Source: Paludibacteraceae bacterium
GTDB taxonomy: Bacteria > Bacteroidota > Bacteroidia > Bacteroidales > Paludibacteraceae
Direction of reading: 5' to 3'
Length of the DNA: 43,769 nt
Assembly (NCBI GenBank): GCA_017646805.1
Contig: JAGCLW010000067.1
Coordinates: forward strand, 1-43,769
Shown here: positions 10,395-23,942 of the stretch, piece by piece
How positions within the stretch are numbered: position 1 is the first letter of the stretch
Layout of the letters: each line of letters starts with the position of its first letter
Position numbers and translations under genes: made by a program
The notes under the pieces: model-generated
What the model was told of the DNA's origin: nothing
What the model saw: the letters and a program-made list of their open reading frames with translations, nothing else
The model's database searches: none

Positions 10395-12668
10395 CTAAAA
10401 TGGATATCCAATCGCAAGATGAAATGCCATATTATCCCACTCTAAATTACGCCATTGCTCACGACCTTTTTTGGTCGGATCATACAATTGTGCTCCCAAA
10501 TCGCAACGAAGAATGAAAAAATCGAAATCAAATCGCAAGCCTAAACCATACGAAAACGCAATTTGCTTATAAAATTCATCAAACTTAAACACGCCCCCTT
10601 TTTGCGTTTCATACTCGCGTATCGTCCATATATTTCCCGCATCTAAAAATGCCGCCCCTTCAAGAACCCAAAATAATTTAAATCGATATTCAATATTCAG
10701 ATCCAATTTTATATCTCCGGTTTGATTAAAGTCTTTTCGTTTTGAATTGGTCACATAACCTCCCGGACCTAACGAACGAACCGACCAACCACGCACACTG
10801 TTGGCTCCTCCGGCATAAAATCGTTTTTCAAAAGGCACAACCGTTTCATTTCCATAAGGATAAGCCAACCCAACATTAAAATGATAAACCAATCGATTTT
10901 TAGAATTGATTACATGATTGTATGCAAAATCAAATTCGCCTTTTACATATTGAGCAAAACGGATATTCAAAATCGTATACGAACCGTCTTTTTTCGGTGC
11001 ATTAGCCGCCGCACAAATTCCCTGAAGTAAGTTTCCTGCAGTCTCTATGCTTCCTCTGTAGGTATAAAACGACTGACGTTCTTTTGAACGATTTTGAGTA
11101 GATTTGGAAAATGTAAATCCGGCCGACATTATAAAGTGATCTTCATACGAAAAACGTGACAATGACGATGTATTCAAATACGTATTTCGAAAAGTCTCAG
11201 AAACAACCGGCAAATAAACATACGAAAGATCCACCAAATTGACCGAATATCGTCGTTCATTTCGACGACCGGCAGTCCAAACATATTTCATTCCGATTCC
11301 AGCTGTATTTCTCGTATACCACGGATTTGTTTGAAAATTATACGATATTGCGACTTCTGTAATTGCTCGGATCCGTTTTCTTGTTTTTTCGTTCAAAAAC
11401 GGAATCAAAGCTCTTGGAAATCGCAAAGAAGCTTCTCCTCCGACATCAATACTTTTGTCCGACAAAAAATCTTCGAGATAACCCATAGGTTGATATGCCG
11501 CACGCAATTTTAAAGAAAATTGATTTGAACGTTTAAACACATTTCGATGAGTATACGTTCCATTCACAGCCGCTCCAATATCTCCTTCCGTATTATTCCC
11601 TTCAACTTCAATCGTAAAAGTCTGAACTTTCACCGGAGTTAAAGCGATATAACAATCTAATAAAGAATCATTTACCTCTGTAAAATTGATTGTCACATAT
11701 CTTGTAACCGACAATGTGTTCAGATTTGAATATGTTCGTTCAACCATTTGTTCCGAAAAATATTTTCCAGGAACAATATGCGTTTTCATATAAACCGTTT
11801 TCGGACACAATTTACGTTTTCCCGAATCATAATAAGTAGTTTTTCCACAAACCAAACTATCTTGAGCTTGCTCTTTCAAAGACAAAGTATTGTCATACCA
11901 AGGAAGATAACCTACGTTTCTAATTTTCATTCGTTGATGAGGAACGGTTTTTACTTCTCCATTTTCGCCCACTTTCGTCATCGGATTAAACTTAAAAACC
12001 AAATCAACTTGATGATTATTCAATGCCGTATCTGCCTCAACATAAATATGATCTTTGTTAAAATAATAAAAACCTTGATTACGAAGGACTTTTACCATTC
12101 TTTGTCGCTCTTCCTCCAATTTGTCTGCGTCAAACAACTCTCCCACTTTGACCGATATATGAGACGTGTCTGCATCTACGAAAGGCTGTAATTCCGACAA
12201 ATTTGTTTCATATTTAATCGAACGAATAAAATAAGGTTCATTTCCCGTGATTTTATAAACAATGGTCGCTCTTTTTTTCTTAAACGTTGTATCTACTTCT
12301 ACAACAGCATTAGAATAACCTTTATTCTTCATCAATCGTTCAATATTAAGTCTTGAAAGATTGGTAAGTTCCGAAGAATAAATTACCGGAGCTTCTCCTA
12401 TTTCTCGAAGTTTTCGATTTATCCACTTACTTGTATCTTGCCCAGACAAACTATAAATCTGCAACTGAACACGCCAACGTCCGAAAATTCCGGTATTTGT
12501 ATTTTGTGACAAATACGGTTTGACCACACTTTTTGTAATTCCATCAATATCACTCTCAACCTTCACTCGATTCACCAAATATTTATCCGCTGGCACATAC
12601 TTCACGACACTACATGAAGACAAAATGCAGAGCAACAAAAAAATATGTATGTAAATGTATTTTTTCAA
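10395..12668 (-). CDS. tamL: TamL-type outer-membrane lipoprotein with BamA/TamA barrel
   Basis: This is a 757-residue Omp85-family protein. The signal sequence ends in LSSC with the lipidated cysteine at about residue 19, which separates TamL from BamA. It is followed by VPADKYLVNRVKVE, POTRA-like repeats to about residue 350, and a C-terminal barrel ending in phenylalanine (HLAIGYPF). RGWSVRSLGPGG matches the conserved RGY/F-type loop of the barrel. In Bacteroidota TamL is thought to work with TamB in outer-membrane assembly; no tamB gene is next to it here. It sits between the GT39-like gene and wecB. Confidence 0.9.
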   Translation of the reverse strand: MKKYIYIHIFLLLCILSSCSVVKYVPADKYLVNRVKVESDIDGITKSVVKPYLSQNTNTGIFGRWRVQLQIYSLSGQDTSKWINRKLREIGEAPVIYSSELTNLSRLNIERLMKNKGYSNAVVEVDTTFKKKRATIVYKITGNEPYFIRSIKYETNLSELQPFVDADTSHISVKVGELFDADKLEEERQRMVKVLRNQGFYYFNKDHIYVEADTALNNHQVDLVFKFNPMTKVGENGEVKTVPHQRMKIRNVGYLPWYDNTLSLKEQAQDSLVCGKTTYYDSGKRKLCPKTVYMKTHIVPGKYFSEQMVERTYSNLNTLSVTRYVTINFTEVNDSLLDCYIALTPVKVQTFTIEVEGNNTEGDIGAAVNGTYTHRNVFKRSNQFSLKLRAAYQPMGYLEDFLSDKSIDVGGEASLRFPRALIPFLNEKTRKRIRAITEVAISYNFQTNPWYTRNTAGIGMKYVWTAGRRNERRYSVNLVDLSYVYLPVVSETFRNTYLNTSSLSRFSYEDHFIMSAGFTFSKSTQNRSKERQSFYTYRGSIETAGNLLQGICAAANAPKKDGSYTILNIRFAQYVKGEFDFAYNHVINSKNRLVYHFNVGLAYPYGNETVVPFEKRFYAGGANSVRGWSVRSLGPGGYVTNSKRKDFNQTGDIKLDLNIEYRFKLFWVLEGAAFLDAGNIWTIREYETQKGGVFKFDEFYKQIAFSYGLGLRFDFDFFILRCDLGAQLYDPTKKGREQWRNLEWDNMAFHLAIGYPF

Positions 12669-12689
12669 AAGAAAAATAAAATCTTACAA

Positions 12690-20610: not shown

Positions 20611-21630
20611 TTAACGTTTGTTCATCAAATAGATGATTTTATTCAATCCATTATGGAATAAATCAATCTCTTCTTCATTCACATAGACATCGTGAGTAAA
20701 GGTCTTATTTTTTTCATCTACACGAGTTTGCAAAATACGAAGAAATTGTCCTTTATCTCCATCTTTTGTATCCATTGTCAATCGACATTCATTTGAAATA
20801 ATCTCCGGCAAAACCGACATTTCTTGCTCGCCTCCTCGCTTTCTATTACGCCAAAAATGATGCACCGCACTGATTTGATCTCTAAAAGCAGTCACTTCGG
20901 CTTTGTTGAGCAACAATGATTTGCGAACCGACTTTTTCTCTTTCAAGTTCTTTTGTTGAGAAATTTTCAAATAAATAGAATCATCTCCCTCTTTCACCTC
21001 AAAAACAATGGCACTATAACGCAAATTTACCGTTATGATTGGCAATTTTACCGGAGGACGAACGTCTTTATTTTGAGACAAAACCACAACATCACGAACT
21101 GCTTCTATTTGTCGAGAAAGATTTCCTTTTGGAGCAACATATCCCACCACAACCTTATCGGCAATTTTCATGATAGCAAGATTGCGTGCTTGGGCAATCT
21201 CCGCCGACGTTCCTCCAAGCGACTCTTTAGGCGAAAGAATCAACAATTGATTCTTCTCCAACGCTTGATTCATCATCGCTGTATTGTTTTTATACACATA
21301 CGGTCTTTCGAGAAAAAGAACCGTTGACACTCCTCGCTCTATTAACTTATTGTACGTAAATCGCTCCGCAAAAGAATGCCCTCCGCAAATAACAACCGTT
21401 TCCTCTTTGTTCAAAGTATCAATCCAAGACAAAATATGAGAAAATTCCGTATTTGGAGTTGATCGCGAAGACAAAAATGCTATTTTCTCTTTTTTCTCCA
21501 ACAATTGTTGACAACCAATCGCATCATAATTTTCTTTTACAGAAGCAATTAAAGCCTCACGAAGTTGTCCATCTTCCGAAAATTTAGAAGACACTAAACC
21601 CGCAATATTGCGAAAAAAATTCTGTATCAA
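20611..21630 (-). CDS. SLOG/DprA-like Rossmann-fold protein
   Basis: This is a 339-residue soluble protein. The middle (about 75-210) looks like a DprA/SLOG nucleotide-binding Rossmann domain: ETVVICGGHSFAERFTYNKLIERG, then LSPKESLGGTSAEIAQARN, then ADKVVVGY. The last 110 residues are a charged second domain I do not recognise. The open frame runs back to 21897, but that stretch lies upstream of a -7 box (21663-21670) and is antisense to the tail chaperone, so I place the start at TTG 21630. DprA itself loads RecA on DNA, and recF follows, so a role with DNA ends is possible, but this is inference. Confidence 0.65.
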   Translation of the reverse strand: MIQNFFRNIAGLVSSKFSEDGQLREALIASVKENYDAIGCQQLLEKKEKIAFLSSRSTPNTEFSHILSWIDTLNKEETVVICGGHSFAERFTYNKLIERGVSTVLFLERPYVYKNNTAMMNQALEKNQLLILSPKESLGGTSAEIAQARNLAIMKIADKVVVGYVAPKGNLSRQIEAVRDVVVLSQNKDVRPPVKLPIITVNLRYSAIVFEVKEGDDSIYLKISQQKNLKEKKSVRKSLLLNKAEVTAFRDQISAVHHFWRNRKRGGEQEMSVLPEIISNECRLTMDTKDGDKGQFLRILQTRVDEKNKTFTHDVYVNEEEIDLFHNGLNKIIYLMNKR

Positions 21631-21662
21631 AATGGTAAATGTTTTAAATTTATATTTCGCCA

Positions 21663-21708: not shown

Positions 21709-22304
21709 ATGAGCGACAACAAGAAACGAATCAACCCCAAAGTTTTTGCAATAAAAAGCAATATGGAAAACAAGATTAAAGAAACTTTTGACGGTGGTGT
21801 AACCGAAGAACAAATAAACAAATGGAAAGGTCAGTACGGAAAAGTTATTCGTATTGATGTTGTCGATGATGGCGACTTGCACGTGGGATATTTCCACCGC
21901 CCCCGACTTGAGACAATGTCGGCGGTTACAAAGATGGCAAAGACTGACGAGTTGAAAAGCTCCGAAGTGATGTTTGACAACTGCTGGCTGGGCGGTAGTT
22001 CGGCTATGCGTCAGGATGCAGTGCTTTTTTTGGAAGCAACAAAACAGCTGGGCACAATGCTTAATAGTTGCCGCAGTAGCCTAAAAAACTTGTAGAGGCA
22101 CACCAACTTTCGGACCGCGATAGCGAAGACGGTTTTGAAAAAGGCTGTGCCTTAATACGGGCGAACTTGGGGATAGACCCAACAAAGGGCGATTATGAGG
22201 ACTGGGCAGTGAACTATGCACAAGCTCTATGGCTCGAAAAATGGAGGTTGAAAAACCAAGCCGAAATGCTGGCAAGGATGTTTGGTGGTAAAGAAAGATA
22301 TTGA
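21709..22304 (+). CDS. Phage tail-assembly chaperone, short form plus -1 frameshift extension (G/GT type)
   Basis: The zero frame (21709-22095) encodes 128 residues, including VGYFHRPRLETMSAVTKMAK and VMFDNCWLGG, typical of tail-assembly chaperones. A -1 frame opens at 22080, has no usable start codon, and runs to TGA 22304, encoding the SDRDSEDGFEKG to MFGGKERY region. The slippery heptamer at 22083-22089 joins them, giving a 198-residue fusion. This is the lambda gpG/gpGT layout, and as in lambda a tape-measure gene follows. Base composition is richer in G and C than the flanking core genes. Confidence 0.75.
22083..22089 (+). other. -1 programmed frameshift slippery site
   Basis: In the zero frame the codons read CTA AAA AAC TTG TAG, so the heptamer is A AAA AAC, a canonical -1 slippery site, two codons before the stop. 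Slipping back one base leads straight into the only long alternative frame. A weak hairpin (ACCG 22114-22117 with CGGT 22130-22133) lies downstream; no strong stimulator is evident. Confidence 0.75.
22237..22292 (+). repeat. 56-bp direct repeat, copy 1 (chaperone 3' end)
   Basis: It matches 23220-23275 at 54 of 56 positions by eye. In the chaperone frame it encodes the last part of the gpGT-like extension (WRLKNQAEMLARMFGGK). Both differences to copy 2 are AGG to AGA arginine codons and so silent. Confidence 0.9.
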
Positions 22305-22472
22305 TTACCATAGCCACCAAGGTAAAAAGCTAAAAGGACTCCCCTTTTTGAATTTTTTAGGACAAAATGGATATATAATTAACGAAATCAAATATATCAA
22401 TAAAACTATAAGCCCTATTGCACACGTAATCCAAAAAATCCAAGCAAATATGGTTGTCAAAATATCAAACAT
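22305..22472 (-). CDS. Small membrane protein 1 of the phage-derived array (candidate exclusion protein)
   Basis: This intact 55-codon gene lies opposite to the tail genes. The product starts MFDILTTIFAWIFWITCAIG, has one long or two short hydrophobic helices (about 3-35), then a basic and tryptophan-rich tail (PKKFKKGSPF, PWWLW). Its stop abuts the chaperone stop with no gap. It has a full consensus promoter at 22495-22524. Protein 2 shares the FW..CAIG motif. A separate promoter inside a late tail operon is the mark of a gene expressed in the lysogen; with a tape-measure neighbour it suggests superinfection exclusion. The function is inference. Confidence 0.6.
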   Translation of the reverse strand: MFDILTTIFAWIFWITCAIGLIVLLIYLISLIIYPFCPKKFKKGSPFSFLPWWLW

Positions 22473-22494: not shown

Positions 22495-22524
22495 CAAAAA
22501 TACCTAAAAAAATATAATATGCAA
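22495..22524 (-). promoter_or_regulatory. Promoter of small membrane protein 1
   Basis: On the minus strand TTG (22524-22522), 19 bp, TATTTTTG (22502-22495). The -33 element falls just inside the tape-measure reading frame, whose ATG is at 22519. Confidence 0.65.
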
Positions 22525-23274
22525 GCATTTAATTACTTATTTAATATTGGAGGCGACTTTTCTGTTAAAATGGAAGGTATGTCAGAAGCAATGGGGAATT
22601 TTAATGCAAGTATCAATGCAACACAAAATGGAATAGGTAAATTAACGCAAACATTTGCTACATTCAATTTAGCAAGTGACATAGTTGGTAAAATCAATAA
22701 CGTTTTCAGTGGTATCACCGAGGCAGGATCGGCAGCAGAATTGCAGTTGATGAATTTGAAGACCTTGTTTGGAGGCAATGCCGAGGCAGCCGAAGCGATG
22801 TATGAGCGCATATCGGAATACGGCAAGGTAACACCCTACGACAAAGCAGGACTTATAGAGGCACAACGCACAATGATGTCTTTTGGCATTGAAGGCGAAA
22901 AAGCATTTGAAACACTCAAACAAATAGGCGACATCGCTATGGGCGATAGTGGCAAGATGCAGTCGCTCGCGTTGGCATTTGCTCAAATGTCGAGTACGGG
23001 GAAACTGACCGGTCAAGACCTAATGCAGATGGTGAATGCCGGATTCAACCCATTGCAAGAGATAAGCAAACAAACGGGAAAAAGTGTTGCAGATCTCAAA
23101 AAAGATATGGAAAAAGGGGCTATTTCTGTTGGAATGGTAGAGGCAGCTTTCAGGAGTGCGACGAGTGAAGGAGGGCTTTTCCATAATGCCATAGCCGAAG
23201 CTTCGGAAACCACAGCGGGAAAAATGGAGATTGAAAAACCAAGCCGAAATGCTGGCAAGAATGTTTGGTGGTAA
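22519..23274 (+). pseudogene. Tail tape-measure protein 1, N-terminal fragment fused to a foreign end
   Basis: The frame encodes 251 residues. The first 233 or so are a tape-measure N-terminus: MQAFNYLFNIGGDFSV, then the tape-measure core ELQLMNLKTLFGG, YERISEYGKVTPYDKAGL, LAQMSSTGKLTGQDLMQM and NAGFNPLQEISKQTGKS. Tape-measure proteins are normally 700 to well over 1000 residues and set tail length. Here the gene stops after TTAGKM, where the second copy of the chaperone 3' end is joined out of frame, adding a chance 17-residue tail. It cannot make a normal tail tube ruler. Confidence 0.8.
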
Positions 23275-23284
23275 AAAGGGTTAG
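23219..23284 (+). pseudogene. 3' remnant of a second tail-chaperone gene
   Basis: Read one frame away from tape measure 1, this piece encodes the chaperone C-terminus (WRLKNQAEMLARMFGGKKG) and ends at TAG 23284. It has only silent changes against the intact chaperone over the shared 56 bp and its own different last residues. It therefore came from a second functional phage module and not from simple decay of the first. The stop lies 3 bp from the stop of small membrane gene 2, the same layout as in module 1. Confidence 0.75.
23220..23275 (+). repeat. 56-bp direct repeat, copy 2
   Basis: Partner of 22237-22292 with two mismatches. It marks the recombination joint between tape measure 1 and the second module. 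Confidence 0.9.
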
Positions 23285-23287
23285 TGA

Positions 23288-23485
23288 TTATAACCCAAAA
23301 GGAGGAAATGTCCCGCAACCTCCATTAAAAAAATCACGATATTTTTTCTTCCATTTTTTGCTGAAAATAGCAAGTATAGGAAGAATAAAAAAGTAGTAAA
23401 ATCCTTTTATTATCCAACAAAAAGCACCTATTGCACAAAACCAAAAGAAAATAACACCTATTATGACAAAAAAATTGAAAAGCAT
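23288..23485 (-). CDS. Small membrane protein 2 of the phage-derived array (candidate exclusion protein)
   Basis: This intact 65-residue gene starts at ATG 23485 (MLFNFFVIIGVIFFWFCAIG). It has two predicted hydrophobic segments (about 1-25 and 28-42), a basic stretch (SKKWKKKYRD) and a Gly/Pro/Phe tail (GTFPPFGL). It shares the FW..CAIG motif and the hydrophobic-then-basic layout with protein 1, but is otherwise diverged. Start at 23485 is preferred over 23545 because the promoter (23506-23536) lies between them. The role is inferred as for protein 1. Confidence 0.6.
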   Translation of the reverse strand: MLFNFFVIIGVIFFWFCAIGAFCWIIKGFYYFFILPILAIFSKKWKKKYRDFFNGGCGTFPPFGL

Positions 23486-23505: not shown

Positions 23506-23536
23506 CAAATTTATAAAAAAAATAATAAAATGGCAA
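23506..23536 (-). promoter_or_regulatory. Promoter of small membrane protein 2
   Basis: On the minus strand TTG (23536-23534), 20 bp, TAAATTTG (23513-23506). The -33 element lies inside the second tape-measure start (ATGGCAAACG), the same geometry as in module 1. Confidence 0.65.
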
Positions 23537-23643
23537 ACGAATCATTAAATTTTACTATAAACCTAAATGGTAATGCCTACAAAGGTGTACTGCAACTAAA
23601 TGATGCTGTATTTATCTTCGAATCATGCGATGGATTCCGTTAA
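23530..23643 (+). pseudogene. Tape-measure protein 2, N-terminal stub
   Basis: ATG 23530 opens 37 codons. The first 27 residues or so (MANESLNFTINLNGNAYKGV) look like a different allele of a tape-measure N-terminus. After LQLNDAV the frame runs into module 3 sequence and stops. The upstream 20 bp (AAAAAAATAATAAAATGGCA) recurs at the third start. Confidence 0.5.
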
Positions 23644-23770
23644 TAGAGCAATCACCTCCTGAATTTGATTTTCCATTCCACCAATCTTTGATAATACGGA
23701 CGAAAGTAATAATACCGCCTATGGTTGCAAGTATAATTATAACCCAAAATATGATAGCGATTAGAATCAT
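23612..23770 (-). CDS. Small membrane protein 3 of the phage-derived array (candidate exclusion protein)
   Basis: This 52-codon intact gene reads MILIAIIFWVIIILATIGG, with one hydrophobic helix (about 1-25), then a basic/tryptophan segment (RIIKDWWNGKSNSGG) and a polar tail. It is in the same position and orientation as proteins 1 and 2 relative to a tape-measure start. The last ten codons (INGIHRMIRR) overlap the end of the tape-measure 2 stub on the other strand, so its C-terminus may have been changed at the joint. Confidence 0.5.
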   Translation of the reverse strand: MILIAIIFWVIIILATIGGIITFVRIIKDWWNGKSNSGGDCSINGIHRMIRR

Positions 23771-23819: not shown

Positions 23820-23890
23820 ACGTTTTTTGATTATCAATTTAATGTTAGCGGTAATTTTACCGCCACGATTAACGGAATGACGGAGAATAA
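23813..23890 (+). pseudogene. Tape-measure protein 3, frameshifted N-terminal stub
   Basis: ATG 23813 reads MANVF and stops. With one T fewer in the run of six T at 23823-23828, the frame continues as MANVFDYQFNVSGNFTATIN, which aligns with tape measure 1 (AFNYLFNIGGDFSVKMEGM). The homology ends near 23890 where the host terminator begins. Confidence 0.6.
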
Positions 23891-23901
23891 CTACAGAATT
23901 C

Positions 23902-23942
23902 AAAAAAAAAGTGGGTTACCCCTTCCCCAAAGAGTAACCCAC
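23902..23942 (-). terminator. Terminator of the small RNA
   Basis: GTGGGTTAC (23919-23911 on the plus strand as 23911-23919) pairs perfectly with GTAACCCAC (23934-23942). On the minus strand nine T follow. It would also catch transcripts from phoH. Confidence 0.85.

Follow-up and report, generated by a model that had tools for sequence, protein, structure and literature searches.

What does an intact frameshift signal mean when it stands beside a broken phage tail gene in a bacterial chromosome? The question is raised by a heptamer at the end of a tail-chaperone gene in a Paludibacteraceae bacterium, and we examined it in the window, i.e. the whole stretch of 43,769 nucleotides that was analysed (contig JAGCLW010000067.1). 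A sequence-only reading of this DNA had proposed that CTA AAA AAC is a canonical -1 slippery site leading into a protein-like frame without a start codon, and that the two frames reproduce the lambda G/GT arrangement upstream of a tape-measure gene. The features concerned are as follows.

21763..22095, plus strand: G, the tail-assembly chaperone in the zero frame, 110 aa (phrog_19076, E 1.9e-38; homology model 1-108 over 21763-22092)
22083-22089, plus strand: slippery heptamer A AAA AAC (AAAAAAC in 116 of 117 loci, AAAAAAG in one)
22089..22304, plus strand: putative T domain of GT in the -1 frame, 71 codons plus TGA (kept in relatives, median dN/dS 0.13)
22095..22153, plus strand: stem-loop with outer helix GAGGCACA / TGTGCCTT, beginning 5 nt past the heptamer (fold z -2.3 in the window; covariation)
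22519..23226, plus strand: tape-measure gene, first ~240 codons only (TMP_3 PF20155, E 7.4e-19; profile 2-241 of 330)

In the window, positions 22081-22095 read CTA AAA AAC TTG TAG, where the heptamer has the correct phase for tandem -1 slippage and a single sense codon (TTG) separates it from the zero-frame stop at 22093-22095. No stop interrupts the -1 frame from 22080 until the TGA at 22302-22304. The early part of this frame contains no start codon; inside it there are only two ATGs, close to the C-terminal end, and a TTG. The zero-frame protein matches phrog_19076, a family without assigned function, and its ORF extends upstream as far as the ATG at 21709. Products of 128 and 198 residues had been predicted earlier; since the homology model starts at 21763 and the relatives of G start at the equivalent ATG, the start used for those figures probably lies 54 nt too far upstream, and the true start is probably ATG 21763, giving predicted products of 110 aa (G) and 180 aa (GT). 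As a word, A AAA AAC occurs 73 times on both strands of this A-rich window, versus 57.8 expected, and because the word is so common its occurrence alone is no evidence; therefore conservation was used as evidence instead.

The relatives of the chaperone were collected from IMG/VR, species genomes and phage records. A query with the -1 frame was matched in full at 117 loci; the search patterns lay within that frame and left the heptamer out. All of the first 14 relatives (39-80% identical) carry AAAAAAC just before the stop together with an open -1 frame, and in nearly all loci the zero-frame stop comes after 0 or 1 sense codons past the heptamer; in 4 of the 117 the HMM sets the site 3 nt late, and AAAAAAC is present there. 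Both frames are under purifying selection, with a dN/dS of 0.08 for G and a median of 0.13 (339 pairs) for the -1 extension. Just downstream, a helix of 8-11 bp is found in most loci, which begins 5-6 nt after the heptamer, encloses a loop of about 30 nt and pairs GAGGCRCACC with GGNUGYGCCUU; in some loci the longest helix found sits elsewhere in the loop. Ten helix pairs are 92% formed over 18 sequences, and sliding the partner by 1-3 columns lowers this to 29-53%. Moreover, where an Ala wobble position in one arm meets a Cys wobble position in the other, the pairs are G-C 47 times, A-U 14 times, G-U 9 times and A-C never (counts inflated by relatedness), a pattern that fits selection for pairing over and above the protein code. 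The alignment of related chaperone genes that the sequence-only reading had called for thus finds heptamer, stop, -1 frame and stem all conserved, and the homologues show the two frames neither fused into one nor split into separate genes, each with a start of its own by the junction. Candidate slip sites near the zero-frame stop are also present in distant relatives, as A AAA AAG in Peternella_1 and L031 and as longer A runs in L013 and L015. The more distant chaperones of L004, L006 and L032 apparently have GGAAAAG-like slip sites there, not AAAAAAC.

Could the break between the frames come, in a decaying prophage, from a plain mutation or an assembly error? It is true that the adjacent tape measure is truncated and that indels are common in a run of six As, but the same break, heptamer and stop recur in more than 100 loci, most of them with full-length tape measures, so that the relatives refute this reading and its probability is practically nil. 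It is likewise very improbable that the extra product comes from RNA-polymerase slippage on the A run and not from ribosomal frameshifting: there are six As in a row, and longer runs in some distant relatives, yet 116 of the 117 loci have exactly six As and then a C, and the covarying stem sits at ribosomal spacing. With hardly any doubt left, the comparison identifies the slippery site as the standard lambda-type G/GT -1 frameshift signal of Bacteroidota contractile-tail prophages, real and of a known kind. We infer that frameshifting at A AAA AAC would proceed by ribosomes on G slipping occasionally from AAA AAC to AAA AAA, assisted by the stem-loop just downstream, and would so produce GT. 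The phage would use G and GT, as lambda does, to load the tail subunit onto its tape-measure protein. With this signal the known kind gains a well-supported representative from Bacteroidota, and annotation of such phages can miss GT, Peternella_1 being an example. In that phage (MT732475.1, 26313-26889) the annotation covers only G, in the zero frame, and leaves out the -1 part of GT, which reaches the tape measure.

As for the type of phage, the gene order in L048 runs capsid, amidase, two unassigned genes, DUF2586 (which carries a sheath annotation in Peternella_1), a 146-aa protein, G/GT, tape measure (PF10145) and DUF6046, and points to contractile-tail prophages related to Winoviridae. 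The L048 tape measure has a PhageMin_Tail match and the relatives have the tape-measure gene next after GT, which together with the TMP_3 match in the window supports the proposed lambda-like arrangement. An intact site beside a broken tail gene had also been noticed before, and in fact the heptamer is present and only about 240 aa are left of a tape measure whose relatives reach about 710 aa. Of the phage, the window retains only G/GT and the start of the tape measure, flanked by recF and one further gene on one side and by phoH on the other; the locus is a prophage remnant in the chromosome. The intact site is accordingly no proof that GT is still used here: it stands in a remnant, where decay may just not have reached the two frames so far. 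In the three congeners examined phoH is present, in two of them with folC found beside it; the stretch examined next to phoH shows neither phage pieces nor recF and its neighbour, so that no clean empty site emerges. A minus-strand gene at 20611-21640, which adjoins recF and has weak similarity to DprA and to PurA ssDNA-binding domains, was not found in other genomes of the genus.

The slippery site is of an expected kind; the less expected part is a set of antisense cassettes and chromosomal arrays. Small antisense genes lie between GT and the tape measure, where the sequence-only reading had missed them, and the window continues with the following features.

22305..22472, minus strand: small membrane-protein gene 1 (predicted), 55 aa (34-45% identical to the same-place gene in relatives; promoter TTG-N-TATTTTTG)
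23219..23290, plus strand: second copy of the GT 3' end, 72 nt (90% identical to 22236-22307)
23288..23485, minus strand: small membrane-protein gene 2 (predicted), 65 aa from the aligned ATG (alignment 38% identical to gene 1; own-genome profile E 4e-15; full promoter)
23533..23625, plus strand: head of a second, different tape-measure gene (MANESLNFTINLNGNAYKGV...), ~30 codons (ORF translation; no profile match)
23612..23770, minus strand: small membrane-protein gene 3 (predicted), 52 aa (aligns with the L178 junction gene; promoter -7 box degraded)
23823..23906, plus strand: head of a third tape-measure gene (profile residues 4-31, E 2e-6)

The window therefore holds three cassettes, in each of which an antisense small gene is flanked by a GT end and/or a tape-measure beginning. 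The ORF of small gene 2 is open to 23545, and full consensus promoters precede small genes 1 and 2, with none of consensus quality at small gene 3. The head at 23533..23625 resembles, by eye, the start of the L089 tape measure.

Among the relatives, 54 of the 57 distinct loci where GT and tape measure are at least 100 nt apart contain an ORF on the minus strand, 37-89 aa long and with one strongly hydrophobic segment, and it is absent from all 19 short-gap loci. The junction genes all lie on the strand opposite to the tail genes, and in over half of the loci the stop of the small gene overlaps the GT stop by exactly 4 nt. The small proteins are very diverse, with a PW motif near the C-terminus in 28 of 54, and the genes evolve as proteins (pooled dN/dS 0.22 over 62 non-independent pairs). 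Most of them match no Pfam or PHROG family, the ten tested match no PADLOC model, and full-text literature searches, in a library that is incomplete, returned no description of such genes. Of 64 regions upstream of the small genes, 37 carry the consensus promoter of Bacteroidota (PMC7366714) on the antisense strand, versus 0.7 expected from mononucleotide shuffles, and none of the 64 carries it on the opposite strand. Its -33 TTG often falls within TTGCCAT or TTGCAT, which as sequence is the reverse complement of the tape-measure start. Because the small gene has its own promoter, with the -33 box often over the tape-measure start codon, the antisense gene that fills the junction could be expressed in a silent prophage; if it is independently expressed, a transcript should start just below TANNTTTG on the antisense strand. 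Both expression and a membrane location are predictions. A terminator-like repeat follows the small genes in L197, seen by eye and in that locus only. The type of small protein is weakly tied to the tape-measure N-terminus, with a partial rho of 0.43 versus about 0.3 elsewhere, a value confounded by linkage. Two rearrangements occur among these loci. L026 (4296-4724), and likewise L049, carries a tandem duplicate of the GT T domain ahead of the small antisense gene, and one GT gene, represented by L158 (5001-5111) and L160 (5019-5135) on contig JAIDJW010000161.1, is split near T residue 34 by an insertion of about 6 kb, with the other half of GT, the small gene and the tape measure beyond it.

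Arrays of this sort are found in other Bacteroidales, many of them in metagenome-assembled genomes. That of L197 has four small genes and three GT tails, with a spacing of partly about 370 nt, that of L198 at least three small genes and that of L200 two, while L199 (5633-6088) has three small membrane-protein genes in tandem ahead of a full-length tape-measure gene. About 19 remnant units retain the last codons of GT, whose upstream part has been cut away, with an open small gene next to them; any tape measure still present has its start and breaks off after varying lengths. L194 is a remnant without a small gene. In two genomes of one genus, the common part is a bare block of 363 nt, from the GT tail to the tape-measure start and 90% identical, whose small gene has a dN/dS of 0.21 between the two genomes; the value for two small-gene copies within L197 is 0.52. 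Such retention of the small genes is suggestive and may be overestimated, because decayed copies would have been missed. The L197 array also contains, at 11842-12671, a 35-nt repeat in five copies spaced about 170-220 nt, adjoining a gene in duplicate whose 126-151 aa product looks like a secreted protein. Two readings of the arrays were considered and rejected. One is that G/GT has been kept for its own function: several other arrays retain only the last 20-40 codons of GT, so that G/GT looks like flank. The other is a rearranging tape-measure shufflon, suggested by three heads in a row; against it stand the direct orientation of the repeats, the differing sequences of the units and the open small gene as the one element that stays constant.

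What the small genes do can be approached from their place and their company. By analogy with HK97 gp15 at the same junction, we lean, with moderate confidence, to a role in superinfection exclusion at DNA entry, and hosts might keep the genes as anti-phage cassettes once the rest of the prophage is lost. The whole explanation, a frameshift signal with antisense junction genes as superinfection-exclusion cassettes retained by hosts, seems to us somewhat better than an even bet. More tentative, and a little short of even, is the proposal that these undescribed and diverse antisense microproteins block phages with matching tape measures and that Bacteroidales chromosomes keep them as immunity arrays. 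What the sequence evidence carries is that both frames are conserved and under selection, that the stem covaries, that the antisense genes exist with promoters and selection of their own, and that the arrays recur.

Type I toxins are small, have a single hydrophobic segment and occur in prophages and in tandem chromosomal arrays, and in all these respects the small genes resemble them. That they are the hydrophobic toxins of type I toxin-antitoxin pairs, and not exclusion proteins, is nevertheless unlikely, for no consensus promoter is found on the opposite strand in the 64 regions scanned, which lie upstream of the small genes, and HK97 gp15 has the same place as these genes conservedly have, at the junction with the tape measure. 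A rather small chance is also left to the reading that the genes serve the phage itself, in tail assembly, lysis or regulation, and that the arrays are no more than leftovers of recombination recurring at the junction. The small genes do lie within the tail gene block, and the units of the arrays have common repeats able to recombine; however, the genes are antisense to the late genes and have their own consensus promoter, they are absent from related short-gap phages, and they stay open in remnants whose tail genes are truncated. If exclusion is indeed what the small genes provide, they would form a simple anti-phage repertoire of gut Bacteroidales, mostly missed by current libraries, and the junction of GT and tape measure would be an address for finding them.

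Among known systems, the lambda tail-assembly chaperone, with its G and GT products, is reportedly made by such a frameshift (Levin 1993; Xu 2004). The likeness extends to the G frame, the slippery site near its 3' end, the -1 extension and the adjoining tape-measure gene. The lambda heptamer is G GGA AAG, whereas here it is A AAA AAC with a covarying stem close behind, in phages that infect Bacteroidota. The tape measure is the binding partner of lambda G, and GT brings in the tail subunits (PMC5009743).

The Winogradskyella phage Peternella_1 (Winoviridae, NC_062754) has a homologous chaperone with A AAA AAG before the stop, a -1 frame that runs up to the tape measure and the sheath gene (DUF2586) upstream, but it has no small antisense gene, and its GT overlaps the tape measure. 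A parallel to the role proposed for the small genes is Ltp of TP-J34, a prophage-expressed superinfection-exclusion lipoprotein that acts on DNA injection and has the tape measure as its target (PMC3952083). Both would be prophage-expressed surface or membrane proteins directed against the injection of phage DNA, although Ltp is a larger lipoprotein. The Ltp gene is placed elsewhere in its phage genome.

In HK97 (NC_002167), the gp15 gene (62 aa) lies between the frameshifted chaperone and the tape measure, and its product is described in PMC10883804 as a superinfection-exclusion moron. The small proteins have no homology to gp15 detectable by hhalign (probability 2.5%), and the genes here differ in lying on the opposite strand, in their far greater diversity and in their chromosomal arrays, with exclusion a proposed role here. 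The likeness is in the kind of product and in its place: a small hydrophobic protein with a single segment, encoded at the junction of chaperone and tape measure, and here provided with its own promoter in 37 of 64 cases.
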